From Rhizobium subbaraonis (lineage in GTDB: Bacteria > Pseudomonadota > Alphaproteobacteria > Rhizobiales > Rhizobiaceae), in assembly GCF_900220975.1 (NCBI RefSeq), contig NZ_OBQD01000023.1, positions 1-64,000 of the forward strand: DNA of 64,000 nt, given 5' to 3'. A model generated the notes under the pieces. It was not told the origin of the DNA, did no database searches, and worked only from the letters and a program-made list of their open reading frames with translations. Of this stretch, positions 19,617-56,568 are shown piece after piece (within the stretch, counting starts at the first letter, position 1; each line of letters opens with the position of its first letter). Position numbers and translations under genes: made by a program.

Positions 19617-20707
19617 GGGTTCACCGATACGATACGGGGACGAGCGGCCGGAACGGGTGCGGCTGCATATCGGTCGAAGGCCTCGGTCGAGCGGATGATG
19701 CCGCACATCAGCAGGTCGGCACTGGAACGATAGCGCCTGCTGTTCTCGTACATGAACGAAACGCTTTCGCATGTCTCGTGCAAGGCGGCGTAGCGGCGGT
19801 ATTCGACGCCGGCGTCCCAATGTTCGCCGCGACTGACCTCGCTGCGCGCCTTTTCGTCGAAGGTGGAAAACAGCTTGAAATGCAGAAGCGCCCCGGTGAC
19901 GGGCGCCACCGCCAGCGGTTCGGTCCGATGGTTCGTCGCCCACCGGCGCCCCGGCCTGCCGCGCATAAGCGGTACCTTGGTGATATCCGGCGGCAGCGAT
20001 CCGAGGCTGGAACGCTGCATGCCGATCAATTTGCCCAGGCGATGCTGCCGAAGATTGCGCATCGCCCGGGCGACCGCCATCTCCCAGGTGCTCATCCGCC
20101 GGTAGCGCGGATAAAACACCCGAAGCCGCGGCCCGCCGACGGCTTCGACGTCGAGAAAGCGATTGGAAAACGGCAGGCTGGCCTTCCGCCTGACGACGTA
20201 CTCCGCGTCGAAATAGGGACAGGTCTCAACGAACGGGGTCCCCCGGATATAGACGGCGTCGGCGACCGGGCCATCGGCGTACATGTCCACCATCGTGGCG
20301 AACATGCCCTCATGGCCGGATTTTTCCAGATACCGGCAGAACTGCCCGAGCCCGACCCTTTCGGCATGCGGATAGACCAGCAGTTCGTCCGCGTCGATGA
20401 ACAGGCACCAGCCGCTCTCGCCATGACGCGCCACCATCGCGTTGATCCAGTTCATGCCGCAGCCGGCTTCTCCGAACGAATCCTTGGTGTGGTAGACGAC
20501 GCAATCGCCCTGCGAGAGCAGGAATTCCGTGGAGCCGTCGTCCGAGCCGTTGTCGCAGACGAAGAAGCGCTCGACGCCGAGCCGGCGGTGATAGTCGAGG
20601 AGGTGCGGCAGCCGGTCGCCCTCGTTGCGCACGACGAGATAGGCGCCGATCACGCCGCCGCCGTCCTGTGATTGCCGTCCGTCGATACGCGCAAGCCTTG
20701 GCTCCAT
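19613..20707 (-). CDS. Glycosyltransferase, Glyco_tranf_2_4 type
   Basis: A 364-residue soluble glycosyltransferase of the Glyco_tranf_2_4/GT92-like group. The nucleotide-sugar fold is evident: GAYLVVRNEGDRLPHLLDYH, then DNGSDDGSTEFL and the metal-binding CLFIDADELLVYP motif (DADE). There are no membrane segments. It starts 1 base after the polymerase stop and ends overlapping the flippase start. It probably adds one sugar of the repeat unit on the cytoplasmic face; donor and linkage cannot be read. Confidence 0.87.
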   Translation of the reverse strand: MEPRLARIDGRQSQDGGGVIGAYLVVRNEGDRLPHLLDYHRRLGVERFFVCDNGSDDGSTEFLLSQGDCVVYHTKDSFGEAGCGMNWINAMVARHGESGWCLFIDADELLVYPHAERVGLGQFCRYLEKSGHEGMFATMVDMYADGPVADAVYIRGTPFVETCPYFDAEYVVRRKASLPFSNRFLDVEAVGGPRLRVFYPRYRRMSTWEMAVARAMRNLRQHRLGKLIGMQRSSLGSLPPDITKVPLMRGRPGRRWATNHRTEPLAVAPVTGALLHFKLFSTFDEKARSEVSRGEHWDAGVEYRRYAALHETCESVSFMYENSRRYRSSADLLMCGIIRSTEAFDRYAAAPVPAARPRIVSVNP

Positions 20708-20708
20708 G

Positions 20709-22142
20709 TCAGGCAGTCCTCATCTTTTTCAGCCTCGACGGCGCATGCGCGTCGCCGACAACGTCGGGCTGCGCCTCGCGAGCGAGAACAAGGAAGAAGG
20801 TGAAAGTCAAAAGGACCGGCAATGCGAGGATGCTGACTTCGGTCAGCCCCATCACCATCATCAGCAGAACGGGCTGGTCGCGTATCGCATCCGGCCTCGT
20901 CCACATCCGCGACACGAGAACGCCAAGAAGGGTGAAGATCGGCAACGCACCCAGAAAGCCAAGATTGAAGATCGCCTGAATATACATGTTGTGGGCATTG
21001 ACCGGCGCCCCCTGAAAAGCGCGCCCGACGCTTTCGATCAAAAGCGCTTCGGTTCCGCCGAATCCCCAGCCGAGAACCGGCTTTTGTGCGATCAGCTCTC
21101 CGGATACGATCCAGAGCTCGGTTCGACCGGTCAGCGTCACGACCTCGCTGATGGATCCCGTACGCGCCAGCGGTCCCAGGAGAAACGTCAGGTCCGGAAA
21201 CTCGCCCACGGCGAGAAGTGCCATGGCGAAGATCAGGCCGGCACCGCCGAGGGCCGCCATCGGGCCTAGCAGCTTCCGCTCGCGCAGCGATATCACCAAC
21301 CACACGACGATCGTCGCCGCGAGCATCGTGCGGCTGTCGGCGGCTATGATCGCGGCAAATCCCACCAAAAGTGCGGGTAGAAACAGCATGGCCGGCAGAC
21401 GCCGGTGCCGTCTAAGCACCACCGCTAGCGTGACCAGCAGGGCAGCCTGCGCCCCCAGCACGTTGGGATGTCCGGAGAAACCGCGCAGACGGTAGACGCT
21501 TTCTTCTGCCGAAGGCGGCAGCCATGCAATGTCCGGCAGTGCGATCCCGGATATAAGCCCGATCGTCAGGAAGACGAGCAGCGTTTGCGTCAGCAGGCGT
21601 ATCGTCGCCTCCGCACCCAGGACTGAGACGACGATACATGCCAGGATGAGGTAGGAGATCAGGCCGAGCGAATTGGCAGCGGTATAGGCGGGGATCAGCG
21701 ACCAGGCGGAGGACGCAAAGGCCACACAGCCATATATCAGTGCCAGCACAATGGTCTTTTCCCGCAGGAACGGTACCAGCCGGCGAACGTGAAACGGGAA
21801 GATCAGGAAGACCAGCAGCCAGGCGACGAGTTTCGTCATGTTCTGCCAGTCCATGCCGCCTGTGCGGGCATAACCATCCATCCGCATGCCGAAGCTCAAT
21901 CCGAAGAAGGCGAAGACGAAGAGCAGGGTGATCGCCCATTTCCGTCCGGCTGCGGCTGCGACCACGGCGACCGAACCAAAAGCGACCGCACCGAGCGCAA
22001 AGGGAAGCACAGCCGCGATCGACTGATTGGCCGAAAGCTGCGCCAGAATGAACACCGGAAAGACGCCCAGCACCAGCATCGCGCCAAACAAGATGTCGGG
22101 GACACGCCGCTCCATTCCGCCGCCGTATCCGGTTGCGTTCAT
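20709..22142 (-). CDS. O-antigen ligase/Wzy-type polysaccharide polymerase (ExoQ-like)
   Basis: A 477-residue inner-membrane protein with about 11-12 hydrophobic helices and a periplasmic loop containing RLRGFSGHPNVLGAQAAL, TGRTELWIVSGELI and GAPVNAHNMYIQAIFNLG, hallmarks of the O-antigen ligase/Wzy domain. It would join lipid-linked repeat units into polymer in the periplasm. The start overlaps the stop of the chain-length regulator by 4 bases (ATGA). Confidence 0.88.
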   Translation of the reverse strand: MNATGYGGGMERRVPDILFGAMLVLGVFPVFILAQLSANQSIAAVLPFALGAVAFGSVAVVAAAAGRKWAITLLFVFAFFGLSFGMRMDGYARTGGMDWQNMTKLVAWLLVFLIFPFHVRRLVPFLREKTIVLALIYGCVAFASSAWSLIPAYTAANSLGLISYLILACIVVSVLGAEATIRLLTQTLLVFLTIGLISGIALPDIAWLPPSAEESVYRLRGFSGHPNVLGAQAALLVTLAVVLRRHRRLPAMLFLPALLVGFAAIIAADSRTMLAATIVVWLVISLRERKLLGPMAALGGAGLIFAMALLAVGEFPDLTFLLGPLARTGSISEVVTLTGRTELWIVSGELIAQKPVLGWGFGGTEALLIESVGRAFQGAPVNAHNMYIQAIFNLGFLGALPIFTLLGVLVSRMWTRPDAIRDQPVLLMMVMGLTEVSILALPVLLTFTFFLVLAREAQPDVVGDAHAPSRLKKMRTA

Positions 22143-23605
22143 GACTTCATCAGCCTGTTCAGATCACGCCGGATCGCCGATGCGTTCATGGCGGCACCGG
22201 CAAGTCCGGCCAACCCCATTGACCCGATGCCATAGAGGATCACGTTCGGAAATACTGGCTTGTCGGGCGCAATCGGCTGAGAGATGACCTCGGCATCCGG
22301 CTTGAGCGCCCCCGTGGCCATGGCCCGGGCGGCTGCACGCGTATGGGCGTCGTTCAGCAGTTCCGCATCGATGGCGGCCTGGCGCCGAAGCTGTGCCAGT
22401 TGGAACGTCGCCTTCTCTCGTTCGACCATGGCGCGCCGGATCCGCGCGACCTCGCTGATGAGACGGCTTTCCCTTTCGACCCAGTTGTCGGCCTCCACGC
22501 GGGCGCTCCGAACGATGCGATCGCGCTCGTCGGCAGCCTGCTTGAGAATGTTGCGGGACTCCGTCGACATCACCGCGAGCCGCGACATGCTCTCCGTCAG
22601 GCTTTGGTTGAGCCGCTGGATCGTGGGCGAAGCAAGCACCTCCGGCGCACTATCGAGAGTGTTGTCGGCCTGCATCCGCGCCAGCGAATCCGCCCGCGTC
22701 TGGGCATCGATGAGGCGGGCTTGTGCTGTGGCGAGTTCGTCGCTGAGGGCACGCAACTGCGCCTCGAGCGCGATCTGCTCGCCCTGATCGATCAGACCAG
22801 AACTGATCATGAATTGCTCCACCGCCGCCGACGAGTGGTCGGCCTCGCGCTGCGCCTCGTCGATGCGATCCTTCAGCAGCGCCTTCATCGCGTCCGCATT
22901 CTGCGCCTTGCGCTCGACCTGCGAGGCCAGGAAGGCGCGCACGAGCGTGTTCGTCATCGCGGCGGCCTTGTCCGGATCGTTCGAGCGGAAGCCGACGCGA
23001 ACGGTGTAGGACTGCCGGTCGCGGCGAAGCACCATCTTGTCCAGGAGCTTTTCCTTCACACCGATCAGGACAACCTCGCCGCCCGAACGGTCGGTTTCGA
23101 GCGGCAGCATCTTCGGGTCTTCCCGGGCGATGCTCTCGGTGACCACGTTTCCGAACATTCCGGAGACGAACCCTGCGACCTTCGTCGCGACGCCGGGCTT
23201 GGACATGAATTCGTCATCGAAGGCCAGGCGATGGGTGTTGACCACGGCATCCGAAATGGCCTCCGAACGGAAGACGTCGAGCTCCGACAGGATGAAGCTT
23301 TCGTCCAGCGGCTGCCGGACGGCCTGGGGATAGTTCGCCTGCCCTTCCATATCCGTCGGCCTCAGCACCAGCGTGGCGGTCGATTCGAAAACCGGCGGCA
23401 GGAACGGCCAGGCGACCGCGGCCATCACCAGCACGGAAGCAGCCCCGTCGAAGAAACGTCGGACGGAATAGCGCGGCCTCGCCTCGATGGGCTCGTTCAC
23501 GTGAGCCTCCGGCGCCAAGAGCATCGGCGCGGACAGCTCCGGCAGAGACTCCGGGCCGTTTGACGGAGCACGCTGGCTTGCGGGTTTGCGGGTTCGCCTT
23601 TCCAT
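22139..23605 (-). CDS. Polysaccharide co-polymerase, Wzz/ExoP-like without kinase domain
   Basis: A 488-residue chain-length determinant. It has an N-terminal membrane helix (about 50-70), a periplasmic Wzz region beginning FESTATLVLRP, long alpha-helical coiled coil (about 230-420) and a C-terminal helix near PVFPNVILYGIGSMGLAGLAG. The cytoplasmic tyrosine autokinase domain found in full ExoP/Wzc is absent: the protein stops about 20 residues after the last helix. Polymer length control here would need a separate kinase or none. It is followed by the polymerase gene with an ATGA overlap. Confidence 0.85.
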   Translation of the reverse strand: MERRTRKPASQRAPSNGPESLPELSAPMLLAPEAHVNEPIEARPRYSVRRFFDGAASVLVMAAVAWPFLPPVFESTATLVLRPTDMEGQANYPQAVRQPLDESFILSELDVFRSEAISDAVVNTHRLAFDDEFMSKPGVATKVAGFVSGMFGNVVTESIAREDPKMLPLETDRSGGEVVLIGVKEKLLDKMVLRRDRQSYTVRVGFRSNDPDKAAAMTNTLVRAFLASQVERKAQNADAMKALLKDRIDEAQREADHSSAAVEQFMISSGLIDQGEQIALEAQLRALSDELATAQARLIDAQTRADSLARMQADNTLDSAPEVLASPTIQRLNQSLTESMSRLAVMSTESRNILKQAADERDRIVRSARVEADNWVERESRLISEVARIRRAMVEREKATFQLAQLRRQAAIDAELLNDAHTRAAARAMATGALKPDAEVISQPIAPDKPVFPNVILYGIGSMGLAGLAGAAMNASAIRRDLNRLMKS

Positions 23606-23612
23606 GGCACCC

Positions 23613-24521
23613 TCACGGTTTGCTTCTTACGAGTGAATAAAGCCTGCTACGCATCGGCCCCGAAATGAGCCTGAAGCCGGAATAGAGCGTCGTCACCATC
23701 AGGAATTCGCGCAGCGTCAGGAAGCCGGCCCTGAAGACGTGCGTGCGGAAGCGGACGTCGTTGACCAGATAGCGGAATCCGCCTCGCCGCTCGTTCAGCC
23801 CGGCGCCGGCGCGCGCGCGCACCAGCACCTTCGGAATGATGTGGAATTGCGCGCCGGCAAGCGCCAGCCGGATCCAGAGATCATAGTCTTCGAGCAGCCC
23901 GAAGCGCGAGCTGTAGCCCCCGACGGAGCGCAGCAGGTCGGCCCGGACCGCGACCGACTGGTGCACGATGACGTTGCGCCACCGCAGCGCCTTGATGATC
24001 GCATCGTGCACGGTGGGCGCGATGCGAAGCCGCACCGCCGGGCTTTCGTCATCGAACTCTTCGGCCCAGGCGGCGACGATATGCACCTCCGGATGAGCGT
24101 CGAGGTAGCGGTACTCGATCTCGATGCGATCCGGCAGGCAGATGTCGTCGCTGTCCATGCGCATGATCACCGGCATCGTGCAGGCCGTGAGGCCCGCGTT
24201 TAGCGCGGCGGCCAGTCCGCCGTTCTTCGAAAGCCGCACGACGCGGAACTCCCAGGCGCTTCCGATCGCGGCAAAGCCTTCGATCACCTGCTCCTGGTCC
24301 GCCCCGATCGGGCCGTCCACGACGAGGACGATCTGCGCGGGCGGCAGCGTCTGCGCCCGCAGGCTGTCCAGGCAGGCGGCCAGGTTGGCCGCCTTTTCCT
24401 TCATGTAGGTGGCGATCAGGACGGAGACCGCCGCAGTGACCATCGCGGTGCTTTTGGCGTGATGCCTGCCGGAGGCGCATCCGCCCTCATTCTCCGGCTG
24501 CGCGGGAAGGTTCCTGTGCAT
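23613..24521 (-). CDS. Glycosyltransferase family 2
   Basis: A 302-residue GT-A glycosyltransferase: SVLIATYMKEKAANLAACL, VLVVDGPIG, GGLAAALNAGL and the metal motif MRMDSDDICLPDR, then GLLEDYDLWIRLA for acceptor binding. The frame can start at GTG 24536 (overlapping the upstream sugar-transferase stop) or ATG 24521; the GTG has no properly spaced ribosome site, so 24521 is used. It probably extends the lipid-linked sugar laid down by the ExoY-like enzyme. Confidence 0.86.
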   Translation of the reverse strand: MHRNLPAQPENEGGCASGRHHAKSTAMVTAAVSVLIATYMKEKAANLAACLDSLRAQTLPPAQIVLVVDGPIGADQEQVIEGFAAIGSAWEFRVVRLSKNGGLAAALNAGLTACTMPVIMRMDSDDICLPDRIEIEYRYLDAHPEVHIVAAWAEEFDDESPAVRLRIAPTVHDAIIKALRWRNVIVHQSVAVRADLLRSVGGYSSRFGLLEDYDLWIRLALAGAQFHIIPKVLVRARAGAGLNERRGGFRYLVNDVRFRTHVFRAGFLTLREFLMVTTLYSGFRLISGPMRSRLYSLVRSKP

Positions 24522-24525
24522 GAGC

Positions 24526-25200
24526 TCACTCAGCACCCCTGCGAGACCAGACCACGCCCGGTGTCCTGAAGAGGATCTTCAGGTCCAGCAGGATCGAGCG
24601 CTTCTTCACATATTCGCGGTCGTATTCGACACGGCGGTCGTAGCTGACATCGTTACGCCCGCTAACCTGCCACAGGCCGGTAATCCCGGGCAGGACGCTT
24701 GCATATTCGCCGACGTGCTGTTTGTAGTGCGCCAGTTCCGCGTTGGTCACCGGCCGCGGCCCGACCAGGCTCATTTCGCCGCGCAGCACGTTGAAGATCT
24801 GCGGTATTTCGTCGAGGCTGGTAGAGCGGAGGAACTTTCCGATCGGCGTGATGCGCGGATCGAAGCCGAGCTTCTGGCGCTCCTTCCATTCGAAACGAGC
24901 GTGTGGATGGTGGAAGAGATATTCCTGGAGGCATTCTTCCGCCCCGACGATCATGGTCCTGAACTTCAGGCAGCCGAACGGCTTCGTCTGCTTTCCGATC
25001 CTTGTATGCCTGAACAGTACAGGGCCGCCGTCGAGCGCCACGAGCATGGCGATCAGGACGAAGAGCGGGGCAAGCAGAACCATCAGCATTCCGGCGACGA
25101 CCACATCAAGCGTGCGCTTGAAGGCCTGGCCGGCAGTCTCGAAGAAACCGGCATTTCGCCATGCCGGCATCGCATAGGCGAGTTTTCGCAGCTCGTTCAA
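24526..25200 (-). CDS. exoY: Undecaprenyl-phosphate sugar-1-phosphate transferase (ExoY-like)
   Basis: The priming enzyme, transferring hexose-1-phosphate (galactose-1-P in ExoY) to undecaprenyl phosphate. The family core is complete: KRTLDVVVAGMLMVLLAPLF membrane hairpin, KFRTM, LRSTSLDEIPQIFNVLRGEM, SLVGPRP and GLWQVSGRNDVSY. The longest frame starts at 25500 but gives an unlike, Cys-rich leader. A TTG at 25200, preceded by AGGGGAGGG, gives 224 residues, the usual ExoY size; an ATG at 25170 is an alternative. First gene of the seven-gene minus-strand exopolysaccharide operon. Confidence 0.88.
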   Translation of the reverse strand: MNELRKLAYAMPAWRNAGFFETAGQAFKRTLDVVVAGMLMVLLAPLFVLIAMLVALDGGPVLFRHTRIGKQTKPFGCLKFRTMIVGAEECLQEYLFHHPHARFEWKERQKLGFDPRITPIGKFLRSTSLDEIPQIFNVLRGEMSLVGPRPVTNAELAHYKQHVGEYASVLPGITGLWQVSGRNDVSYDRRVEYDREYVKKRSILLDLKILFRTPGVVWSRRGAE

Positions 25201-25762
25201 AGCACCCTCCCCTTCTTGTTTTTCAAGCGGTACTGCGGAGATGCGTCTCCGCGTTCGAGCGCCCCAAGGACACCACTCGCGCCTGTCGCTTTGCAAGGAA
25301 ACAGAAGGGCTACCCCTTGAGAGGGGAGCGGGAGATATACTTATTTCGGGACATAACCAGTTCGAGCATCGCGGATTGAGAACCGCGCAGGGAACCTCAA
25401 CCAAATTGGTACGGCATGACCAAGCCTGGTACGCCGAATTCATCAGGCAGGATCTAACCTCGTCGAGGCCGTCCTCCCACTTAGGTATAGCTTCGGTCAA
25501 ATTTTGGGGAGCATGGGCCTGCGCGATACATTAGGAAAAAACAATTGATGCAAAAATGGGCGCATGCTATAAATATTTTTCTACAGACAAATAGAAACAC
25601 CCACATTAGGTATCTATAAAGTTTGTTATTTAGTATATTTTTGATTATGTATAACTTCTACGCAACTTAACTTCTCTCGTTAACTATATCGTTCTGCGTT
25701 TGACTTCGGGAGAATTCAGGCGAGCGAATGTCGCGCCATACGTGATGATCTTGGAGAGACGC
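25201..25762. other. Divergent regulatory region between exoY-like and luxR-type genes
   Basis: A 562-base intergenic region without a convincing gene. About 25530-25690 is strikingly AT-rich compared with its surroundings and must hold the promoters. A near-palindrome ACCAA-A-TTGGT lies at 25400-25410, and the adjoining stretch repeats TGGTACG twice; either could be a regulator site. Confidence 0.5.
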
Positions 25763-26545
25763 ATGACGCATCACATTTATATGCTTGAGACATGCCGATT
25801 ATTTCGGGAGGGAACACGTATCCTGCTCGATTCGTTTGCGTTTGAAGTCGTCGGCGTGGGAGAGACGCTAGCCGATATCGGCAAGTTGCCGGATGCCGGC
25901 ACATCCCTTTTGTTCATCGTGGGTACGCTCGAAGACGCCACCGCATCAGATGCCATAGCGGCCATTCTGAATCTCAATCCCAGGGCCAGGATCGTCGTTC
26001 TCGCGGACAACTACGACCCCGAGGCCGCCGACACGGCCGTCATGCTCGGGGCCAAGGGCTACCTGCACAAAGGCCTGTCGGCGGATAACTTCATCAAGGC
26101 CCTGCAGCTCATTGCTGACGAATGCTCGGTGGTCTCGGGCAGTGGGACCGGTAGCAGGAACATCACCCCGGAAGCGGACGCGAGGGTGGAAGCCGCATCG
26201 CCGCCTCCGGCAGCAGATGCCCCCGTTGCAACCGCACTCGACGAATTCGCACTGCAGACCGATCTCGGCGCTGCGCCGCAACACGCACACGCTCCACCGC
26301 CACCGCTCGGCGATGGCCGCGGTGGCCTGTCTCCCCGCCAGAAGGCGATCCTGAAGCTTGTAACCGCAGGCGCCTCCAACAAGGAGATCGCGCGCAATCT
26401 CGATATCAGCGAAGGCACCGTGAAGGTGCATATCAAGGCGATCCTGCGCAGGATCGCCGTGAAGAACCGCACACAGGCTGCCATCTGGGCGCTGGCTGCA
26501 AAGCACTCGGAACCGTGGACACGCGACAGCACCAATGATCGATGA
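25763..26545 (+). CDS. LuxR/NarL-type regulator with degenerate receiver domain
   Basis: A 260-residue regulator. Residues 1-120 have a receiver-like fold (YMLETCRLFREGTRILLDSF at the start and GAKGYLHKGLSADNFIKAL at the end, conserving the late Lys). The N-terminal acidic pair and the phospho-acceptor Asp position are not recognisable (TSLLFIVGT where D-x-x-MP is expected), so it may not be phosphorylated. A proline/alanine-rich linker (about 135-185) leads to a normal LuxR HTH (LSPRQKAILKLVTAGASNKEIARNL...GTVKVHIKAIL). ATG 25763 follows GGAGAG; an upstream ATG at 25700 is less likely. It is divergent from the exopolysaccharide operon and is its likely regulator. Confidence 0.87.
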   Translation: MTHHIYMLETCRLFREGTRILLDSFAFEVVGVGETLADIGKLPDAGTSLLFIVGTLEDATASDAIAAILNLNPRARIVVLADNYDPEAADTAVMLGAKGYLHKGLSADNFIKALQLIADECSVVSGSGTGSRNITPEADARVEAASPPPAADAPVATALDEFALQTDLGAAPQHAHAPPPPLGDGRGGLSPRQKAILKLVTAGASNKEIARNLDISEGTVKVHIKAILRRIAVKNRTQAAIWALAAKHSEPWTRDSTNDR

Positions 26546-26570
26546 TTTGAAACCTCTTCATCGATCATTG
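26533..26570. terminator. Perfect hairpin spanning the luxR-type stop codon
   Basis: A 13-bp perfect inverted repeat (26533-26545 with 26558-26570) encloses a 12-base loop. The left arm contains the regulator's last codons and TGA. It lies between convergent genes and lacks a T-run, so it may serve both directions or protect the 3' end. Confidence 0.5.
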
Positions 26571-26614
26571 CTGTAAGGGACGGGCGATCGCTTCCGCTGC
26601 GACGCTCGGCCGGC

Positions 26615-27343
26615 TCAGCGCTTCACGCAGAGCGCGGCGCGAGGGACGCCCGAGGCATCGAAGAAAAACCGGGCGCTGGAATAGCCGGTGGTCCGCGTGA
26701 CCAGTGCCAGGGTCTGGCGCTCCTGCCCTTCACCGAATTCAAAGGCCAGCGCGCCACCGGGTCGCAGAAAATCGAGCGCGTCGTAGATCAGCCGCTGGTG
26801 GATCGCGATGCCGTAGGGGCCGCCGTCGAAAGCCTCACGCGGCTCGTGCTCCAGAAGGTGGGCGCGATCGGCCGTCAACCGGCCGCTGGAAATATAGGGT
26901 GGATTGCAGACGACCATGTCCACCATGCCTTCCAGGCCCTGGTGCCGGATGTTCTCGAACAGATCGCCCTGCACGACCGTGACCCGGTCCTCCAGAGAGA
27001 AGCGCGCGACGTTGCGGCGCGCAACCTCCACCGTTTCCGGCGTCAGATCGCAGGCGTAGACCCGCGCTCCTTCAATGTTGCGGGCAATTGCAATACCAAG
27101 ATTACCGCTGCCGCAGCACATGTCGATCACGACGGGTTCGGCCACCCCCTGCGCCACGTGCTCCACGCAGACATTGCCCAGAAGCTCCGTCTCCTCGCGC
27201 GGCGCCAGAACGTTCGGCCCAAGCTCGAAATCCATCCCCATGAACCGGATCAGGCCGGAACCGGCGTCGACTGCACCGAAGGGAACTCCGGCGCCTGCAC
27301 CCGCGCCTGCCGGCCCGGTATCCATCGTGTGATGTGACGACAT
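26615..27343 (-). CDS. Class I SAM-dependent methyltransferase, PrmC/HemK-like (NPPY)
   Basis: A 242-residue methyltransferase. SAM motif I is VVIDMCCGSGNLGIAIA, and the catalytic N147-P-P-Y150 motif marks N-methylation of an amide or amine (release-factor glutamine in PrmC). The N-terminal 25 residues are Gly/Ala/Pro-rich and the helical recognition domain of true PrmC is largely missing; no prfA gene is adjacent. A frame extends to 28996 but is spurious: ATG 27343 has a perfect AGGAGG 8 bases upstream. It is divergent from the asparagine-synthase operon and may methylate a product or carrier of that pathway (inference). Confidence 0.8.
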   Translation of the reverse strand: MSSHHTMDTGPAGAGAGAGVPFGAVDAGSGLIRFMGMDFELGPNVLAPREETELLGNVCVEHVAQGVAEPVVIDMCCGSGNLGIAIARNIEGARVYACDLTPETVEVARRNVARFSLEDRVTVVQGDLFENIRHQGLEGMVDMVVCNPPYISSGRLTADRAHLLEHEPREAFDGGPYGIAIHQRLIYDALDFLRPGGALAFEFGEGQERQTLALVTRTTGYSSARFFFDASGVPRAALCVKR

Positions 27344-27682
27344 GCGCAATCCTCCTAGTGCCAGCGTCTGGTGGCGGGGCTTGCCGGTTTCCAGCCATGG
27401 TCCCGTCTGGGACAGGCATCCGGCGCCAGCCCGATGTTCATACCGGGCATCACCAGCGTAAAGACGGCCGCGCCGGGGCATCAGGGTTAACCCGTACGGA
27501 AACGGCATCGCTCTCATTGGGTAGCCCGTTTGCGCCGTTGCTCGGACAGGTGGCATCGACAACACTCCAACGCCAGGCGTGAGGGACGCCAGGTGCGGGG
27601 GCACCTGTATCCACAACATCGTGCCCAGAACACGCGCCGGGAAAACCGAGCATCGCGAAGCAAAAAGCACGAAGGGACCGCT
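27344..27682. other. Divergent promoter region of the asnB operon
   Basis: A 339-base spacer between the methyltransferase and asparagine-synthase starts. It holds both ribosome sites (AGGAGG for the methyltransferase, GAAGGG for asnB) and presumably both promoters. I see no additional gene and no clear operator. Confidence 0.5.
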
Positions 27683-29659
27683 ATGTGCGGAGTGATCGGA
27701 TATTTCGGCGATCGAGTGCCGACCCAAGAGGCGAGGCATCTCCTGCATCGCATGGCCGTTTCCGTCCAGCACCGCGGGCCCGACGATGCCGGATTCTACA
27801 TTGGCGACGGCATCGGCTTCGCCCACCGGCGGCTCTCCATCGTCGGCATCGCCGACGGTCATCAACCCATGGCGAATGTCGAGGGATCGCTCGTTGTCTG
27901 TTTCAACGGCGAAATCTTCAACTATGTCGAGTTGCGCGACATGCTGGAGGCGCGTGGCCATCGCTTCCGCACCACGTCGGATACGGAAGTCATCCTGCAC
28001 CTCTATGCCGACAGGGGCGACGAATGCGTCGACCATCTGAACGGCGATTTCGTCTTTGCCCTCTGGGATGCCTCGCGCCGCCGCCTGCTGATTGCGCGGG
28101 ACCGGATGGGCGTGCGCCCGCTCTTCTATGCCCGCCGCGAAAATACGCTTTTCTTTGCCTCGGAGGTAAAGGCGCTGCTCGGCGTTCCGGGCTTGAGCGC
28201 AGAAATGGATCCCTTCGCTCTGGATCAGGTCTTCACCTTCTGGGCCCCCGTCCCGCCCCGGACAATCTTCAAGGACATTTCGGAACTGCCGGCCGGCCAC
28301 CTTCTCACTGCAGACGACGGCGGGATGACGGTGCGGCCCTACTGGGATATTGCCTTCCCCGACGCGGCGGAGCGCGAGGATGGTCGCGCGGAGGCCGATG
28401 TCGCAGACGAGGTGCTGGCCCTGCTCGACGATGCCACGGCGATCCGCATGCGGGCCGACGTGCCGGTCGGCGCCTATCTCTCCGGCGGCCTCGATTCCTC
28501 CATCACCTGCGCGCTCGCCAAGCCCTATGCGCAAAGTGGTCTGCGCACCTTCTCGGTCACTTTCGGCTCGCAGGAGCACGACGAGAGTTCCTACCAGCGC
28601 GAAATGGTCCGTGCCCTCGGCACCGAACATTCCTCGATTTTCTGCGGATCGGACGAGATCGCCGAAGCCTTTCCCTCTGTCGTTCTGCATACGGAAAAGC
28701 CGGTGGTCCGCACCGCGCCCGCCCCGCTCTACCTCCTCTCCCGCCACGTCCGCGACGAGGCGATGAAGGTGGTCCTGACCGGCGAAGGCGCCGACGAGGT
28801 CTTTGCCGGCTACGATATCTTCAAGGAAGCGAGGGTCCGGCGCTTCTGCGCCCGCCAGCCCGGCTCGCAGCGGCGCTGGCAGCTGTTCCGCCGCCTCTAT
28901 CCCTATCTGCCGGGCCTGCAGCAGCAATCGCCGGATGCGCTTGCCGCCTATTTCGGCGCGCATGACGACGACCCCGCCGACCCACTGTTTTCGCACCGAC
29001 CGCGTTTTCGCAGCACGGGTGCGGCGAAGATCTTCTTCTCCGCAGCGCTTCGCGAAGAGCTAGCCGGCTACGATGCGGCCGATGAGCTGCTGGCGCGCAT
29101 ACCGGCCGATTTCGCCCGCTGGCACCCGCTGCACCAGGCGCAGTATCTGGAAACCAAGTTTCTCCTGCCGGACTACATCCTGTCGAGCCAGGGGGATCGC
29201 ATGGCGATGGCACATGGCGTCGAGGGGCGCTTCCCGTTCCTCGATCACAGGCTCGTAGAGCTTGCCGCCCGGATCCCGCCCGCCATGAAGCTCAAGGGCT
29301 TCGTGGAGAAGAGCATCCTGCGCAAGGCGACGGAGGGCCTGCTGCCGCCAGCGATCAACACACGCGTCAAGCAGCCCTACCGCGCCCCGGACAGCGCCTC
29401 CTTCTTCACCGGCGCCGAACCGGACTATGTCGGCCGTCTCCTCAACCGGACGGCGGTCGAGAAGACCGGGCTGTTCAATCCGCTCGCCACGGAAAAGCTG
29501 CTTTCCAAATGCCGGCGGCAGGCCAACGGCTTCCGCGACAACACGGCCTTCGTCGGCGTCCTCTCGACGCAACTCTGGCACGAAGCCTTCACGAAACGGT
29601 CTGCCTGGCAGCCCGGACACCATGAACCGTCACGAACAATCCAATATGGAGACGCATGA
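27683..29659 (+). CDS. asnB: Asparagine synthase (glutamine-hydrolysing) family
   Basis: A 658-residue class II amidotransferase. The start at 27683 gives M-C-G-V-I-G, exposing the nucleophilic Cys2 of the glutaminase domain (about 1-210; HRRLSIVG, FNGEIFNY, SDTEVILHLY). The synthetase domain has the PP-loop S267-GGLDS-S273 and VVLTGEGADEVFAGYD. Family enzymes form amides from a carboxylate via an acyl-adenylate and glutamine nitrogen; members outside primary metabolism often build amide bonds in natural products or modify surface glycans. The ACP gene follows with an ATGA overlap, so these genes belong to one pathway and the true acceptor may not be aspartate. Confidence 0.93.
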   Translation: MCGVIGYFGDRVPTQEARHLLHRMAVSVQHRGPDDAGFYIGDGIGFAHRRLSIVGIADGHQPMANVEGSLVVCFNGEIFNYVELRDMLEARGHRFRTTSDTEVILHLYADRGDECVDHLNGDFVFALWDASRRRLLIARDRMGVRPLFYARRENTLFFASEVKALLGVPGLSAEMDPFALDQVFTFWAPVPPRTIFKDISELPAGHLLTADDGGMTVRPYWDIAFPDAAEREDGRAEADVADEVLALLDDATAIRMRADVPVGAYLSGGLDSSITCALAKPYAQSGLRTFSVTFGSQEHDESSYQREMVRALGTEHSSIFCGSDEIAEAFPSVVLHTEKPVVRTAPAPLYLLSRHVRDEAMKVVLTGEGADEVFAGYDIFKEARVRRFCARQPGSQRRWQLFRRLYPYLPGLQQQSPDALAAYFGAHDDDPADPLFSHRPRFRSTGAAKIFFSAALREELAGYDAADELLARIPADFARWHPLHQAQYLETKFLLPDYILSSQGDRMAMAHGVEGRFPFLDHRLVELAARIPPAMKLKGFVEKSILRKATEGLLPPAINTRVKQPYRAPDSASFFTGAEPDYVGRLLNRTAVEKTGLFNPLATEKLLSKCRRQANGFRDNTAFVGVLSTQLWHEAFTKRSAWQPGHHEPSRTIQYGDA

Positions 29660-29931
29660 TGGCGACCCTGAATGAAGAAATCCGAGCGTTCATCGTCGAG
29701 AGCTTCCTCTTCGGCGACACGTCCAGAACACCGGGCGACGACGATTCCCTGATCGAGAACGACGTGGTGGATTCGACCGGCATCCTCGAACTGGTCGCCT
29801 TTGTCGAAGACAATCTCGGAATTCCGGTCGCCGATGCGGAGATCCTGCCGGCCAACTTCGATTCCATCGCCAAGCTCGCAGCCTTCGTCACGTCCAAGCG
29901 CGGCGGGCTCCAGCAGGACGACGCGGCCTGA
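29656..29931 (+). CDS. Acyl/peptidyl carrier protein
   Basis: A 91-residue acidic carrier protein. The phosphopantetheine attachment site is Ser40 in NDVVDSTGILELVAFVED, and the rest follows the four-helix carrier fold (LNEEIRAFIVESFL; FDSIAKLAAFV). The start overlaps the asnB stop by 4 bases; a second ATG lies 3 bases on. It is a stand-alone carrier, not a housekeeping AcpP (context and sequence differ), and is expected to be loaded by the AMP-dependent ligase encoded next. Confidence 0.88.
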   Translation: MMATLNEEIRAFIVESFLFGDTSRTPGDDDSLIENDVVDSTGILELVAFVEDNLGIPVADAEILPANFDSIAKLAAFVTSKRGGLQQDDAA

Positions 29932-29998
29932 TCAAGGCACCCGCGGTCCAGCGTTCCTGCCGAACGCGGCCGAAACGATAACCTTGCGAGGATCAGGC

Positions 29999-31552
29999 AT
30001 GCGCGTCGAAGAGTTCCTGCGCAACAGCGCCCGTCTTCACGGCGAGAAGATCGCCCTGGTTGCAGGCGCGAACAGGTTGAGCTTTGGCGAGCTCGACGCG
30101 GTTTCCGACCGCCTTGCTGCAGCGCTGCAGCGGGCCGGTCTGGAGCCCGGCGACCGCGCGCTCGTCTTCATGGACAATTGCTGGGAGGCGGTGGTCTCCA
30201 TCTTCGCGATCCTGAAGGCCGGCTGCGTCTTCAGCCCGATCAATTCTTCCACCAAACCGGACAGGCTTTCCTACATCCTGCGCAACTGCCGCGCCCGCGC
30301 CGTCATCACTCAAGCGAAACTGGAAGGCATCGTGGAGGCGGCGAGGCCGGGCTCGAGCGTCGATTGCGTCATTGTGGCCGGCGCCGCCGGTGAGAGCGGC
30401 AAAGATGTCATGCGCTTTTCGGACTGCATCGCAGATCCTGGAGCCACGCCCCGTCACGGCGGCATTGATATCGATCTCGCCATGCTGATCTACACGTCCG
30501 GTTCCACCGGTCGGCCGAAAGGGGTCATGATGACCCATCGCAACGTCGAGGCGGCAGCGACCTCGATCACCACCTATCTGGAGAATACGTCCGACGACAT
30601 CGTCCTCAACGTGCTGCCGATCGCCTTCGACTACGGTCTGTACCAAGTCCTCATGGCAATCAAGATCGGCGCAACCATCGTACTCGAAAATTCCTTCGCC
30701 TTCCCGCAGGCGATCTTCGACACGATACTGCGCGAAAAGGTCACCGGCTTTCCGCTCGTACCGACGATGGCGGCGATGATCCTCAACATGCGCGACCTGC
30801 GCCCGGGCTTCCTGCCGGGCCTTCGCTACATCACCAACACGGCCGCCGCCCTGCCGGTGGAGCATATCGGCCGCCTGCGCCGGCTCTTTCCCGGCGTCAC
30901 GCTCTATTCCATGTACGGGCTGACCGAGTGCAAGCGCTGCACCTGGCTGCCGCCGTCGCAGCTCGACGTCCGGCCCGGCTCCGTCGGCATCGCCATTCCC
31001 AACACCCAAGCCTATGTGGTCGACGACGAAGGCCGCAAGGTTGGTGCGGACGTTGTGGGCGAACTCGTCATCCGCGGGCCGCACGTCATGCAGGGCTACT
31101 GGGAGGACGAGCAGGCGACCGCACGGGTGCTTCGACCCGGTCCTCATCCATGGGAGCGCGTGCTTCACACCGGCGACCTCTTTCGCACCGATAGCGACGG
31201 CTTTCTCTACTTCGTCGGCCGTAAGGACGACATCATCAAGTCGCGCGGCGAGAAGGTCGCGCCGAAGGAGGTGGAGGCAGCGCTGCACGCCTGCCCCGGC
31301 GTGTCCGAGGCGATCGTCTTCGGCATTCCCGATCCGGTTCTCGGACAGGCCGTGCATGCGGTTGTCGTGGTGAACGATCCCGCGCTGAGCGAACAGGTCG
31401 TGATCCGCCACTGCCAGAAGAACCTCGAGGATTTCATGGTGCCCCGCTCGGTCTCGTTCACGAATGAGCTGCCGAGAACCGACACCGGCAAGCTGAGCCG
31501 CCGGCTGGCGGCAGACGAATTCAACAGACAAGAAACGGAGATGGCGAAATGA
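29999..31552 (+). CDS. AMP-dependent acyl-CoA/acyl-ACP synthetase
   Basis: A 517-residue ANL-superfamily ligase. The P-loop YTSGSTGRPKGVMMTHRN, the YGLTE motif (SMYGLTECKR), the HTGDL motif and the hinge VGRKDDIIKSRGEKVAP are all intact, as is the C-terminal catalytic Lys region (PRTDTGKLSRR). The family activates a carboxylic acid as acyl-AMP and passes it to a pantetheine thiol; the preceding ACP is the natural acceptor. The frame opens at 29801, but ATG 29999 matches the family start. Its stop overlaps the next ORF by 4 bases. Substrate not assignable. Confidence 0.9.
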   Translation: MRVEEFLRNSARLHGEKIALVAGANRLSFGELDAVSDRLAAALQRAGLEPGDRALVFMDNCWEAVVSIFAILKAGCVFSPINSSTKPDRLSYILRNCRARAVITQAKLEGIVEAARPGSSVDCVIVAGAAGESGKDVMRFSDCIADPGATPRHGGIDIDLAMLIYTSGSTGRPKGVMMTHRNVEAAATSITTYLENTSDDIVLNVLPIAFDYGLYQVLMAIKIGATIVLENSFAFPQAIFDTILREKVTGFPLVPTMAAMILNMRDLRPGFLPGLRYITNTAAALPVEHIGRLRRLFPGVTLYSMYGLTECKRCTWLPPSQLDVRPGSVGIAIPNTQAYVVDDEGRKVGADVVGELVIRGPHVMQGYWEDEQATARVLRPGPHPWERVLHTGDLFRTDSDGFLYFVGRKDDIIKSRGEKVAPKEVEAALHACPGVSEAIVFGIPDPVLGQAVHAVVVVNDPALSEQVVIRHCQKNLEDFMVPRSVSFTNELPRTDTGKLSRRLAADEFNRQETEMAK

Positions 31553-32544
31553 GACCGGATGCACGCATGGACGCCGCCTTCTCCGCCGAAGCGCTGAAGC
31601 TCGATCCGGCCCGCGAGGTGGCCCGCATAGCAGAAGCGCTGCGAGATCAGGTCCGCACGCGGATGCGTCGCAGGGGGCTGGTGCTGGGCCTCTCCGGCGG
31701 CGTCGATTCCAGCGTCTGCGCGGCGATCGCCGTACACGCGCTGGGCGCCAAGAACGTCTTTGCCCTCTATATGCCCGAACGCGATTCCGACCCCGAAAGC
31801 CTGTCGATCGCCCGCGAGGTCGCCGACACCTATGGCATTGCCGGAGAAGTGGAGGACATCGGCCCGACGCTGGATGCCATGGGCTGCTATCGCCGCCGCG
31901 ACGCCTTCATCCGCGAGGTCGAGCCCGCCTACGGCCCCGGCTGGGCCTGCAAGGTCTCGATATCGAGCCCGCTGGAAAGCGATCACTTCGCCATCTCGAC
32001 CCTTGTGCTGCAGGCGCCCGACGGCTCCATCCACCGCAAGCGCATGCCGGCCTCGGTCTATCTCGGCATCGTGGCCGCCACCAACATGAAGCAGCGCACC
32101 CGCAAGCAGATGGAATACTATCACGCCGACCGGCTCAACTATGCGGTTCTGGGTACCCCAAACCGGCTCGAGTACGATCAGGGCTTCTTCGTCAAGAACG
32201 GCGACGGTGCTGCCGACGTGAAGCCGATCGCCCATCTCTATAAGTCCCAGGTCTATCAGCTCGCCGAATATCTCGGCGTGCCAGAGCGCGTCGTCGCCCG
32301 CCCGCCCACGACCGACACCTGGTCGCTCGCCCAGACGCAGGAGGAATTCTACTTCGCCCTGCCCTACGACCGGATGGACCTGTGCCTCTTCGCCTTCAAC
32401 GAGAACATACCGGCGCGGGAAGCCGCGGAAGCTGCTGGCCTGTCGCCCGATCAGATCGAGCGCGTCTGGCAGGATATCCAGTCGAAGCGCAAGACGACAC
32501 GGCCTCTGCACCTGGCGCCGCTCCTCGTGGAACAGGTCTTCTGA
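31549..32544 (+). CDS. NAD synthase-like ATP-pyrophosphatase amidase
   Basis: A 331-residue protein with the NadE fold: PP-loop S49-GGVDS-S55, MPERDSDPESLSIAREVA, VLGTPNRLEYDQGFFVKNGDG, DVKPIAHLYKSQVYQLAEYL and the late Q-x-x-E-F-Y segment (TQEEFYFALPYD). No nitrilase/glutaminase domain is fused, so it would use free ammonia or ammonia from a partner such as the AsnB-like protein. Inserted segments (about 105-150) differ from housekeeping NadE. Tight coupling within a carrier-protein operon argues for a dedicated amidation step rather than general NAD synthesis (inference). Confidence 0.85.
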   Translation: MRPDARMDAAFSAEALKLDPAREVARIAEALRDQVRTRMRRRGLVLGLSGGVDSSVCAAIAVHALGAKNVFALYMPERDSDPESLSIAREVADTYGIAGEVEDIGPTLDAMGCYRRRDAFIREVEPAYGPGWACKVSISSPLESDHFAISTLVLQAPDGSIHRKRMPASVYLGIVAATNMKQRTRKQMEYYHADRLNYAVLGTPNRLEYDQGFFVKNGDGAADVKPIAHLYKSQVYQLAEYLGVPERVVARPPTTDTWSLAQTQEEFYFALPYDRMDLCLFAFNENIPAREAAEAAGLSPDQIERVWQDIQSKRKTTRPLHLAPLLVEQVF

Positions 32545-33534
32545 ATGCCTGGGAGCGATGTCGCGATGAACGAAAAGGTCGAAAACGAGAACCCGGACGA
32601 AAAACGTGCCCGCCGCCTCGAAAAGCTCAGGCACTGGCGCAAGGCCTGCGCCGACGAAAGCCTCGAACTGAAATCCTACAATCTCGAGCCCGGCTGCAAC
32701 CCGCTGCTTCTGTTCCACGGCGACTTCGACATGGGCGGCGTCTATGTGCGAAAGCTCGCCAACGACTGCGCCCATCCCCTCATCGCCTTCGCGCCGCACG
32801 GCATGAACGACGACAACGTCAAGCCCAGCATCGAGTGGATGGCACGCGAACGCCTTGCCGACATCTTCGCGGTGCGCTCGAACGGCCCCTATCGCCTCGC
32901 CGGTTACTGCAACGGCGCGCTGGTGGCCTATGAATGTGCTCGCCTGCTGCAGGAGCGGGGCTGCACGGTAGAATTCGTCATCATGATCGAGCCTTCGTCC
33001 CTCAATGCGCGCCCGGGATACCGGCTGATCCATCGCGCGCTGTCGTCCTTCTTCCCCCCGCCGGCCGAGCGCTCGGACAAGGCACAGGAACGGCTCGGCG
33101 TGATCATGCGCAAGGTGTGGAATGCCGGCCGCGTTGCCCATCTGTCGCCGGCCGAGATCGCCGCTCTCGCCCGCAGCATGAAGGAGCGGCGGCTCAAGGA
33201 GCGCCAGCGCCTGGCCGAAGACCTGCAGTCAAGAAGTTCGAGCGAAAAACAGCTCCAGGAGCGCTATGCCGGGCTGATCCACGTCTATACCGCAGCGCTC
33301 GCCTCCTATGTCCCCCAGCCTTCCACCGTCCCGGTCGTGGTCCTTTCCACCGGGCGCGACGGCCAGGGCCGGCAATGCGGGTTATACGACGGAAAGCAAT
33401 GGGGCAGGCTTGCCCGCAATTTCCGTCATATACAGATGCCGGGCCACCACTCGACCTGCCTGTCGGTCCATGCCGGGGAACTGGTCGCGAACCTGCGCTC
33501 GATCCTCGCCGCCCATCCGGCGCAGTCCGCTTGA
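32545..33534 (+). CDS. Thioesterase-domain alpha/beta hydrolase with Cys nucleophile
   Basis: A 329-residue protein resembling the thioesterase domains of non-ribosomal peptide/polyketide systems. Seen are LLLFHGDFDMGG near residue 55, the nucleophile elbow LAGYCNGALVAYECA with C122 in place of the usual Ser, and a late His in MPGHHSTCLSVH (H301/H302). An Arg/Lys/Glu-rich helical insert lies at about 205-245. Cys at the elbow favours transacylation to an amine or slow release (known for some thioesterases and dienelactone hydrolases). Start is directly after the upstream stop; ATG 32566 is an alternative. Last gene of the operon. Confidence 0.82.
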   Translation: MPGSDVAMNEKVENENPDEKRARRLEKLRHWRKACADESLELKSYNLEPGCNPLLLFHGDFDMGGVYVRKLANDCAHPLIAFAPHGMNDDNVKPSIEWMARERLADIFAVRSNGPYRLAGYCNGALVAYECARLLQERGCTVEFVIMIEPSSLNARPGYRLIHRALSSFFPPPAERSDKAQERLGVIMRKVWNAGRVAHLSPAEIAALARSMKERRLKERQRLAEDLQSRSSSEKQLQERYAGLIHVYTAALASYVPQPSTVPVVVLSTGRDGQGRQCGLYDGKQWGRLARNFRHIQMPGHHSTCLSVHAGELVANLRSILAAHPAQSA

Positions 33535-33623
33535 AAAGACGAAACCATGCACGCGGCGGCAGTCTCAAGCGCGGAAGCGTGTCGCGCAAGAGTCTGAAGC
33601 CGACGACAGCGACAGGACCTGCT

Positions 33624-34106
33624 TCAGGATATCTCGATAATCTCGATTTCGCGGTCCCCGACGCTCATCACGTCACCGACGGCTTTTCCGAGAACGATCC
33701 TCGCCACCGGCGATACATAGGAAATCGACCCCGTTTTGGGATCGGCTTCGTCCTCCCCCACGATGCGATATTTCTGGATACGCCCGTCGTCGCGGCTGAA
33801 GGTGACAGTGCTTCCGAATGCGACGGTCTCGCGCGATTCCGGATCCGCGACGAGCTGGGCGGTGCGCACCCTTTCGGCAAGGTAGCGCACATCGCGCAAC
33901 GGTCCCGCCATCTGCCGCCGCCGTTCGTTCACGTCTTCCACGACATTTGCCGCCTCATAGGCCGCGCGTGCCTGTTGCAGTTCGCGCTCCAGCGCGCTCA
34001 ATCCCGTCTGCGTGACAAGGTTGGGATGGGGCGAAATCGGACGATCCGGCAGAACGGTTTCCGCGGCCGTTTCGGCACTCTCTTCCTTGACAAAGGCGAC
34101 GCTCAA
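33624..34106 (-). CDS. GreA/GreB-family transcript-cleavage factor-like protein
   Basis: A 160-residue GreA/B relative: helical N-terminal part (LVTQTGLSALERELQQARAAYEA...NERRRQMAGPLRDVRYLAERVRTAQLV) and the C-terminal FKBP-like half (VAFGSTVTFSRDDG, RIVGEDEADPKTGSISYVSPVARIVLGKAVGDV). The start is TTG 34106, supported by AAGGAG 7 bases upstream. The acidic coiled-coil tip that stimulates RNA polymerase cleavage is not obvious, so it may be a Gre-like accessory factor or polymerase-binding antagonist. It converges on the thioesterase gene. Confidence 0.87.
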   Translation of the reverse strand: MSVAFVKEESAETAAETVLPDRPISPHPNLVTQTGLSALERELQQARAAYEAANVVEDVNERRRQMAGPLRDVRYLAERVRTAQLVADPESRETVAFGSTVTFSRDDGRIQKYRIVGEDEADPKTGSISYVSPVARIVLGKAVGDVMSVGDREIEIIEIS

Positions 34107-56493: not shown

Positions 56494-56517
56494 TGAGTAC
56501 GGTTCCGACAAAAAATC

Positions 56518-56540
56518 GGGCGGGTCCGTGAAACCCGCCC
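56518..56540 (+). terminator. Hairpin between muA and muB
   Basis: Perfect 8-bp stem GGGCGGGT / ACCCGCCC (56518-56525 with 56533-56540). No T-run; probably attenuation or mRNA protection within the early transcript. Confidence 0.45.
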
Positions 56541-56568
56541 AATCGATAGCTCAATAGGAACCTTTGTA

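Follow-up and report, generated by a model that had tools for sequence, protein, structure and literature searches.

The window, that is, the whole stretch of 64,000 nucleotides of Rhizobium subbaraonis DNA analysed here (positions 1 to 64,000 of contig NZ_OBQD01000023.1), carries a compact group of six genes, hereafter the cassette. The first one lies on the minus strand (26615..27343) and encodes, according to profile models, a PrmC/HemK-like N-methyltransferase of 242 aa. A divergent intergenic region (27344..27682, from the gene models) separates it from five genes on the plus strand, which code for an AsnB-like glutamine-dependent amidotransferase (27683..29659, 658 aa; PF00733 and PF13537), a stand-alone carrier protein with a DST phosphopantetheine site (29656..29931, 91 aa), an AMP-forming acid ligase (29999..31552, 517 aa; PF00501 and PF13193), a NadE-like PP-loop amide synthase of the PRK00876 subfamily (31549..32544, 331 aa; NF002048), and a thioesterase-domain alpha/beta hydrolase with a Cys nucleophile (32545..33534, 329 aa; PF00975). 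The AsnB and carrier genes overlap by 4 bases, as do the ligase and NadE-like genes, the NadE-like and thioesterase genes abut with a gap of 0 bases, and 67 bases separate the carrier from the ligase. The identities and coordinates given in a preliminary description of this DNA, as well as the tight and partly overlapping spacing it reported, were all borne out by gene models and domain searches. Its remark that ketosynthase and NRPS modules are lacking also holds for the six genes, among which Pfam detected no multidomain NRPS modules.

The AsnB start is placed at ATG 27683; a start at the beginning of a longer TTG open reading frame was rejected. The promoters of the methyltransferase and AsnB genes are presumably both located within 27344..27682. 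A promoter scan of positions 26400-33800 found no sigma-70-type consensus, and no tRNA or Rfam matches were detected within the window. A gene for a LuxR-type regulator (25700..26545, plus strand; GerE, PF00196) is found in the same position in relatives L004-L010 and is part of the locus in window-type relatives; the N-terminus of this regulator gives a weak receiver-like match below cut-off. The catalytic motifs of the cassette enzymes are intact, including AsnB Cys2, the PP-loops, the carrier Ser, the NPPY motif of the methyltransferase, and the Cys and His of the thioesterase.

The AsnB-like protein exceeds the cut-off of TIGR01536 (504 bits) and possesses both AsnB hallmarks, an N-terminal Cys glutaminase domain and a PP-loop synthetase domain. 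Cys2 is kept in 103 of the 107 loci with a match, the alignment giving no coverage at that position in the other four. Its closest solved structure is 7ylz, a "hydroxyamidotransferase", and the genomic context would argue against free aspartate as its substrate. The carrier protein has no Pfam match and only weak NCBIfam matches (NF052616 and NF058660, both below cut-off); its closest solved chain is 2my5, a peptidyl carrier protein, and the phosphopantetheine Ser is present in 107/107 loci with a match. Among solved chains, NRPS adenylation domains and oxalate/oxalyl-CoA ligases come closest to the ligase, which presumably loads the carrier.

The NadE-like protein shares with canonical NadE the fold, the PP-loop and the GDGAAD/PT motifs. 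A structure model (pLDDT 87.1) shows the NAD synthetase fold, with 2e18 as the Foldseek match (E 2.9e-18). In contrast to canonical NadE, it carries an insertion after the second strand (67 residues vs 14 in 2e18, that is, about 50 extra residues), whose Trp132 and Lys135 are kept in 108/108 loci with a match. Moreover, the C-terminal His-Lys of both 2e18 and the NadE encoded on contig C28 of the same genome, which we take to be substrate-binding in canonical NadE, is replaced. The protein scores above cut-off with two models, NF002048 (516 bits vs 313) and TIGR00552, the nadE model (157.9 vs 63.65). Because of the latter score NAD synthase activity is possible; judged by these profiles, the NF002048 subfamily describes the protein better.

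The methyltransferase exceeds the cut-off of TIGR00536 (141.2 vs 115.5) and falls below that of TIGR03534 (172.9 bits vs 199.1). It lacks the PrmC N-terminal domain, since its phmmer alignment begins at residue 86 of 1sg9. PrmC proper, i.e. a release-factor methyltransferase, was therefore rejected, given the missed TIGR03534 cut-off and the absent N-terminal recognition domain. The NPPY motif is kept in all 60 loci with a methyltransferase match among the 110 loci searched.

Two of these enzymes score above the cut-offs of housekeeping models (TIGR01536 and TIGR00552), which would fit an accidental adjacency of AsnB, NadE and PrmC paralogs serving asparagine synthesis, NAD synthesis and release-factor methylation. 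The rest of the genome makes this explanation very improbable. Contigs C55 and C28 encode stronger TIGR00552 matches, and C79 a weak one that still exceeds the cut-off; C53 carries a separate PrmC gene that scores above the TIGR03534 cut-off, and C73 a second gene of the AsnB type. The presence of these separate genes indicates a dedicated pathway rather than a housekeeping one, and the cassette methyltransferase departs from PrmC as described above. Furthermore, 379 of 397 genomes of the phylum have no NadE-like match above cut-off, yet the gene adjoins those for the carrier and the ligase in 28/28 sampled genomes fetched across the order and phylum.

Co-conservation points in the same direction. 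Of 80 related loci (those retained from 310 found), 78 have the AsnB-like, carrier, ligase and NadE-like genes grouped on the same strand, and so do 26 of 28 further genomes drawn from across the order and phylum; the core thus recurs in many rhizobia and in other proteobacteria. Three gene orders of the core were observed, plus a fourth one in Azospirillum. The adjacency of the four core genes is not due to chance, and the core is well supported as a biosynthetic unit. The preliminary description had set co-conservation against scattering of the orthologs, and the genes are co-conserved even where their order is shuffled; its proposal of a dedicated carrier-based amide/acyl pathway is upheld by this fact together with the other NadE, PrmC and AsnB-type genes of the genome. 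In the two exceptional genomes an AsnB-like gene is located elsewhere (its product being 62-63% identical to the AsnB of a relative). There, the gene overlaps a Wzx gene and heads a Wzx-GNAT-Wzz-Wzy-deacetylase-GT4 operon.

The last enzyme of the cassette varies among loci. The thioesterase of the window matches PF00975 with 54 bits, and the Cys of its GYCNGA motif is invariant in 9/9 thioesterase orthologs; the alignment comprised six Cys-type orthologs and five Ser-type thioesterases, the 565-aa ligase of L109 being left out because it has no thioesterase domain. In three relatives (L103, L108 and L111) a protein of 911-930 aa combines an adenylation domain with the thioesterase as its C-terminal part, as judged by Pfam for L103 and by similarity for L108 and L111. 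A carrier-like stretch was seen in these fusions by eye only.

Either the thioesterase or a GNAT-type acyltransferase (c3/F35) stands beside the core: one kind was found in 96 of 108 loci, both in none, and neither within the stretch in 12. In 64/80 loci and in 13/28 of the further distant loci a tandem GNAT is found where others have the thioesterase, c3 being counted apart from its paralog c9 (L024 was counted in and L064, with c9 only, out). The window genome has the thioesterase and shows no match for this GNAT family. A structure model of the GNAT partner (pLDDT 93.1) displays a tandem acyltransferase-like fold, the top Foldseek matches of which are Eis2 and N-myristoyltransferase (E about 1e-12, TM-scores 0.45-0.59); the family profile gave no match against solved sequences, so that these relatives were found by fold search only. 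The replacement of a thioesterase by a tandem GNAT suggests transfer rather than hydrolysis, and the exchange points to an amine as the acceptor of the carrier-bound acyl group. The earlier proposal that the Cys thioesterase transfers or releases the product is thus strengthened, transfer being the outcome predicted from the comparison of loci; the thioesterase could also merely hydrolyse its thioester.

A polysaccharide cluster adjoins the cassette, all on the minus strand. It encodes a Wza-type polysaccharide export protein (16111..17334; PF02563), a Wzx-type flippase fused in one open reading frame to a GH16 glycosidase domain (17331..19610; PF01943 and PF00722), a glycosyltransferase (19613..20707; PF13704), a Wzy-type polymerase/ligase (20709..22142; PF04932), a Wzz-like chain-length protein (22139..23605), a family 2 glycosyltransferase (23613..24536; PF00535) and an initiating sugar-phosphate transferase (24526..25500; PF02397). 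The Wzz-like protein has no Pfam match and is assigned by its weak similarity to the Wzz-type proteins of the broader group, the identity being 22-33% and in part confined to short stretches. Hence the cluster contains the set of a Wzx/Wzy-dependent system (initiating transferase, glycosyltransferases, Wzx, Wzy and Wza), Wzz by weak similarity. No polysaccharide deacetylase was found among its scanned proteins. In Azospirillum thermophilum, genes in the order deacetylase-ACP-ligase-AsnB-NadE-GNAT are located inside one polysaccharide cluster.

Polysaccharide markers are enriched near distant cassettes, since they are present in 7 of 17 cassette stretches vs 1 of 32 control stretches (p 0.0014), a count made without seeds taken from the tested loci and without L104; the controls represent 16 of these 17 genomes, G253 being left out because its contig is too short. 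The preliminary description had left the choice between a small amide metabolite and a substituent of the neighbouring polysaccharide. The latter is favoured by the adjoining Wzx/Wzy cluster, the enrichment of markers and the split-off AsnB, from which a polysaccharide acceptor would follow.

The association is not strict. With the seeds used, no polysaccharide marker was detected within about 10 kb in the other 10 of the 17 distant cassette stretches, nor in 32/80 Hyphomicrobiales loci (in the latter count some seeds came from tested loci). The former observation would fit a small diffusible amide metabolite, such as a signal, a metallophore or an antimetabolite, that the thioesterase releases as a free acid or amide, the polysaccharide genes being incidental. 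The fusion of the thioesterase behind an adenylation domain in three relatives is reminiscent of small-molecule assembly, and the solved structures closest to the carrier and to AsnB, a peptidyl carrier protein and a hydroxyamidotransferase, agree with it. Against such a metabolite stand the replacement of the thioesterase by a tandem GNAT in many loci, which suggests transfer, and the retention of the split-off AsnB with a polysaccharide operon. We consider a small metabolite unlikely, while giving it a real share of the probability. Modification of a lipid, or of an outer-membrane component other than an exported polysaccharide, is improbable. The carrier resembles weakly the ornithine-lipid carrier model NF052616, with a score (42 bits vs a cut-off of 130) that is far under the cut-off; lipid-type genes occur some kilobases off in one plasmid relative, Shinella L086, while the recurrent neighbours identified are mainly polysaccharide genes.

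The idea that the GNAT-containing polysaccharide operon depends strictly on the cassette was not upheld either, since 12 of 183 genomes of the order have the GNAT family and no NadE-like gene over cut-off. The stretches fetched from these genomes gave no match to AsnB, carrier or ligase in any of the 12 cases (E 1e-4). One of them, G055, shows a weak NadE-like match (27%). In G537 much of the polysaccharide operon is present and a NadE-like gene over cut-off is absent (the fetched stretch was the ground between its two GNAT matches, the matches themselves lying outside), which indicates that the polysaccharide operon can dispense with the cassette.

Several known systems share parts of this gene set. 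XrtA/PEP-CTERM exopolysaccharide loci resemble the cassette in that related families of AsnB-like amidotransferase and AMP ligase occur there in the setting of polysaccharide genes; a carrier protein, alpha/beta hydrolases and a PLP decarboxylase are also encoded in them. To our knowledge, they lack a NadE-like enzyme, a PrmC-like methyltransferase and a tandem GNAT. Membership in this group was rejected, because the AsnB-like protein falls below the TIGR03108 cut-off (448.4 bits vs 816.9) and the ligase below that of TIGR03098, its top NCBIfam model (449.5 bits vs 592.35). The exosortase XrtA model (TIGR03109) had no match in the R. subbaraonis genome; likewise, 0/14 control genomes gave one over cut-off, so that the search had no positive control.

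In the butirosin side-chain pathway and in Dlt D-alanylation, a stand-alone ligase and a carrier produce an acyl thioester for an amine or a polymer; neither is known to us to include an N-methyltransferase or PP-loop amide synthases like those of the cassette. The Caulobacter holdfast proteins HfsK and HfsH are a tandem GNAT acyltransferase and a polysaccharide deacetylase, respectively. Similarly, relatives of the cassette have tandem-GNAT proteins and an HfsH-like deacetylase among Wzx/Wzy genes, the latter scoring below the NF050820 cut-off (172 bits vs 400), whereas the window genome has a thioesterase instead. The portion of the HfsK literature covered here makes no mention of a carrier pathway as the acyl donor. 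In floc-forming bacteria, two asparagine synthetase genes belong to a conserved cluster that is reported to serve exopolysaccharide biosynthesis (PMC9012009). The main text of Haft 2006 (PMC1569441) contains no occurrences of the gene names. No description of the cassette gene set was found in the open-access literature searched, and nothing found there contradicts the earlier view of the cluster as undescribed.

We consider it an even call that the carrier pathway builds an amide-bearing acyl group and delivers it to an amine, most likely that of an amino sugar in the adjoining Wzx/Wzy polysaccharide. The ligase would adenylate a di- or polycarboxylic acid, or an amino acid, and load it onto the phosphopantetheine Ser of the carrier. 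AsnB, using glutamine-derived ammonia, would then amidate a free carboxylate of the acid bound to the carrier, and the NadE-like enzyme may adenylate a second carboxyl group (or the amide) to form a second C-N bond. Where its gene is present, the PrmC-like enzyme could methylate an amide nitrogen, by analogy with PrmC acting on glutamine. Finally, the Cys thioesterase, or the tandem GNAT in other lineages, would move the acyl group from the carrier to the amine. The loading of the carrier by this particular ligase, the order of the three middle steps, the N-acylation and the sugar acceptor are what we infer.

A more specific proposal is tentative, its chances being somewhat short of even. Two PP-loop enzymes, AsnB and a repurposed NAD synthase, would give a carrier-bound acid two amide bonds (or an amide plus an amidine or imide bond), a repurposed release-factor methyltransferase would N-methylate it in some lineages, and a Cys thioesterase or tandem GNAT would pass it to the amino sugar of a secreted polymer, a previously undescribed polysaccharide decoration.

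The whole NF002048 subfamily, labelled "NAD(+) synthase", apparently consists of enzymes with a specialised biosynthetic role. Sinorhizobium, Ensifer and Rhizobium are examples of the soil and symbiotic bacteria that possess genes of this type. If polysaccharide decoration is the true role of the cassette, the PRK00876 "NAD(+) synthase" subfamily would acquire a new function across Pseudomonadota. If the product is a side group of a surface polymer, the cassette would clearly illustrate how a thioesterase and a GNAT can carry out one and the same last step, and it would offer an unexplored handle on biofilm and plant attachment.

The six genes that the preliminary description had assigned to the cassette (26615-33534) were all confirmed with their coordinates. 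Five of them, coding for an AsnB-like amidotransferase (start codon ATG 27683), a carrier protein, an AMP ligase, a NadE-like protein and a thioesterase (TE), form a head-to-tail array on the plus strand. AsnB and carrier, as well as ligase and NadE, overlap by 4 bases, the carrier and ligase genes are spaced by 67 bases, and the NadE/TE gap is 0. The methyltransferase gene is divergent from this array, with an intergenic region of 339 bases. Upstream of the cassette, the minus strand carries a polysaccharide cluster of the Wzx/Wzy type, composed of genes for a Wza-like exporter, a Wzx-GH16 fusion, a glycosyltransferase (GT), Wzy, a Wzz-like protein (an assignment based on weak evidence), a GT2 and the initiating sugar transferase, the latter followed by a plus-strand LuxR regulator gene. 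The fusion (17331-19610, minus strand) is a single ORF in which a flippase domain of the Wzx type is combined with a GH16 glycosidase domain, an arrangement of which we know of no description. Another single ORF (34258-35754, minus strand), with a homolog at the equivalent position in the close relative L104, joins an N-terminal acylphosphatase-like domain to a TupA-type ATP-grasp domain. At 53178-57591 (plus strand), ORFs resembling a ParB-like protein, a Mu-type transposase and an ATPase were recognized by eye, as in a Mu-like prophage.

When the NadE-like protein was used as query against genome contigs, 310 relatives were obtained, of which the best 80 were kept; 79 of these belong to organisms that we take to be Hyphomicrobiales, L055 being assigned only to Alphaproteobacteria. 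AsnB, carrier, ligase and NadE genes are present together, on one strand and in one order, in 78 of these best 80 of 310 loci, the other two being a 3-kb contig (L017) and a locus where no ligase was found (L040). Whole genomes were also sampled in order to avoid selection by similarity. Of 397 Pseudomonadota genomes, 18 gave an NF002048 match above cut-off, as did 16 of the 199 genomes sampled from the order; five genomes were common to both sets of matches, leaving 29 distinct ones including our own, and the neighbourhoods of the 28 others were fetched (one, L104, is closely related to the window, with 92-99% identity in most genes). Carrier, ligase and NadE genes occur together in 28/28 and AsnB accompanies them in 26, in the orders AsnB-ACP-LIG-NadE (18), NadE-AsnB-LIG-ACP (7) and AsnB-LIG-ACP-NadE (1), while an Azospirillum thermophilum plasmid record shows ACP-LIG-AsnB-NadE. 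A common function is the simplest explanation for core genes being kept together despite this shuffling. The biosynthetic cluster proposed initially is supported by its co-conservation. The cassette is almost certainly a specialised biosynthetic unit of wide but sporadic distribution. Among 14 named control genomes, Methanosarcina acetivorans was the sole NF002048 match above cut-off, so the NadE-like subfamily extends to archaea.

Among families that have a name, the XrtA-associated amidotransferase and ligase come closest, with the cassette proteins scoring below their cut-offs. No description of the gene set was found in the open-access full texts searched. Our genome (6.58 Mb, 85 contigs) carries further TIGR00552 matches, at 211 bits on C55, 194 on C28 and a weak 67 (cut-off 63.65) on C79, a second AsnB-type gene on C73, and PrmC above cut-off on C53. 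The window methyltransferase is below the PrmC cut-off and devoid of the PrmC N-terminal domain. Catalytic motifs are intact across loci. The NadE-like protein shares its fold with NAD synthetases but has an extra stretch, 67 residues against 14 at that place in the solved chain 2e18, modelled with three strands at 133-165. Trp132 and Lys135 of this stretch are invariant in the 108/108 loci with a match; a C-terminal His-Lys, present in 2e18 and in the C28 NadE, is replaced. The nearest solved relatives of the ligase are adenylation domains and oxalate/oxalyl-CoA ligases. The presence of two amide-forming enzymes suggests that two C-N bonds are made on one carrier-bound acid, and the PrmC-like enzyme, encoded in 51/80 and 9/28 stretches, would methylate one of these amides.

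The gene next to the core varies. The stretches fetched for the 80 loci contain a Cys-type TE (7), a GNAT of family c3 (64) or neither (9), and those of the 28 genomes a Ser-type TE (7), a Cys-type TE (2), the c3 GNAT (13), F35 (3; a separate GNAT-like family named from the annotation of an Azospirillum homolog) or neither (3). TE and GNAT never share a locus in the 80 + 28. The c3 gene starts less than 3 kb from a core gene in 58/64 loci and 13/13 distant genomes. The polysaccharide operon includes a paralog of c3, c9, which is also present in 32 of the 64 c3 loci and stands alone in L064, one of the nine loci with neither; hexapeptide acyltransferases are found near two of the three such distant loci. 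No Pfam family matches the c3 protein, whose structure model (pLDDT 93.1) resembles Eis2 and N-myristoyltransferases, tandem GNATs that act on amines as acyl acceptors, over nearly the full length (E about 1e-12; moderate TM-scores of 0.45-0.59). In window-type TEs Cys replaces Ser in 9/9 orthologs, and Ser is kept in the five NadE-first-type TEs aligned. Directly before the NadE-like gene, L103 (2359-5115), L108 (10459-13251) and L111 (6781-9516), also of the NadE-first type, encode proteins of 911-930 aa in which a Ser-type TE is fused behind an adenylation domain (Pfam scan for L103 only). In our reading, TE and GNAT are alternative ways of carrying out a single step, the passage of the acyl group from carrier to amine, and transfer of the cassette product to an amine is probable. 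The closest concept is HfsK/HfsH of the Caulobacter holdfast, for which acyl transfer to amines exposed by the deacetylase has been suggested (PMC5362036).

With marker seeds from the window, L033, L072 and L085 only, at least one polysaccharide marker was found in 7/17 distant cassette stretches versus 1/32 control stretches of the same contigs (Fisher p 0.0014; 6/16 and p 0.0036 when L104 is left out), the 11 order-sample stretches being left out of this count. At least one marker also occurs in 48/80 loci, a set with no control of its own and from which some seeds were drawn. Against a link, many cassettes have no polysaccharide marker nearby, and the GNAT family is present in 12 of 183 order genomes without the NadE-like gene, in whose fetched stretches AsnB, carrier and ligase were not found at or above E 1e-4. 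However, the GNAT accompanies the NadE-like gene in 10/16 order genomes, so that their co-occurrence is far above chance (p 1.7e-7, genomes of one order not being independent). In G055, a weak NadE-like match (L191:13714; 27% over 271 aa) lies about 4 kb from a c3/c9-family GNAT, with AsnB, carrier and ligase matches absent from the stretch. The two genomes with a separate AsnB, G346 and G217 (one genus), are informative: ligase, carrier and NadE share one site, and AsnB (62-63% identity to that of a relative) heads a polysaccharide operon on a different contig, overlapping the Wzx gene by 4 bases and accompanied by GNAT, Wzz, Wzy, deacetylase and GT4 genes. Many loci of the Ensifer/Sinorhizobium type have homologs of these polysaccharide genes beside an intact cassette. 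Of the products first envisaged, a small amide or a polysaccharide substituent, the latter has about an even chance, with the polysaccharide as acceptor of the cassette product.
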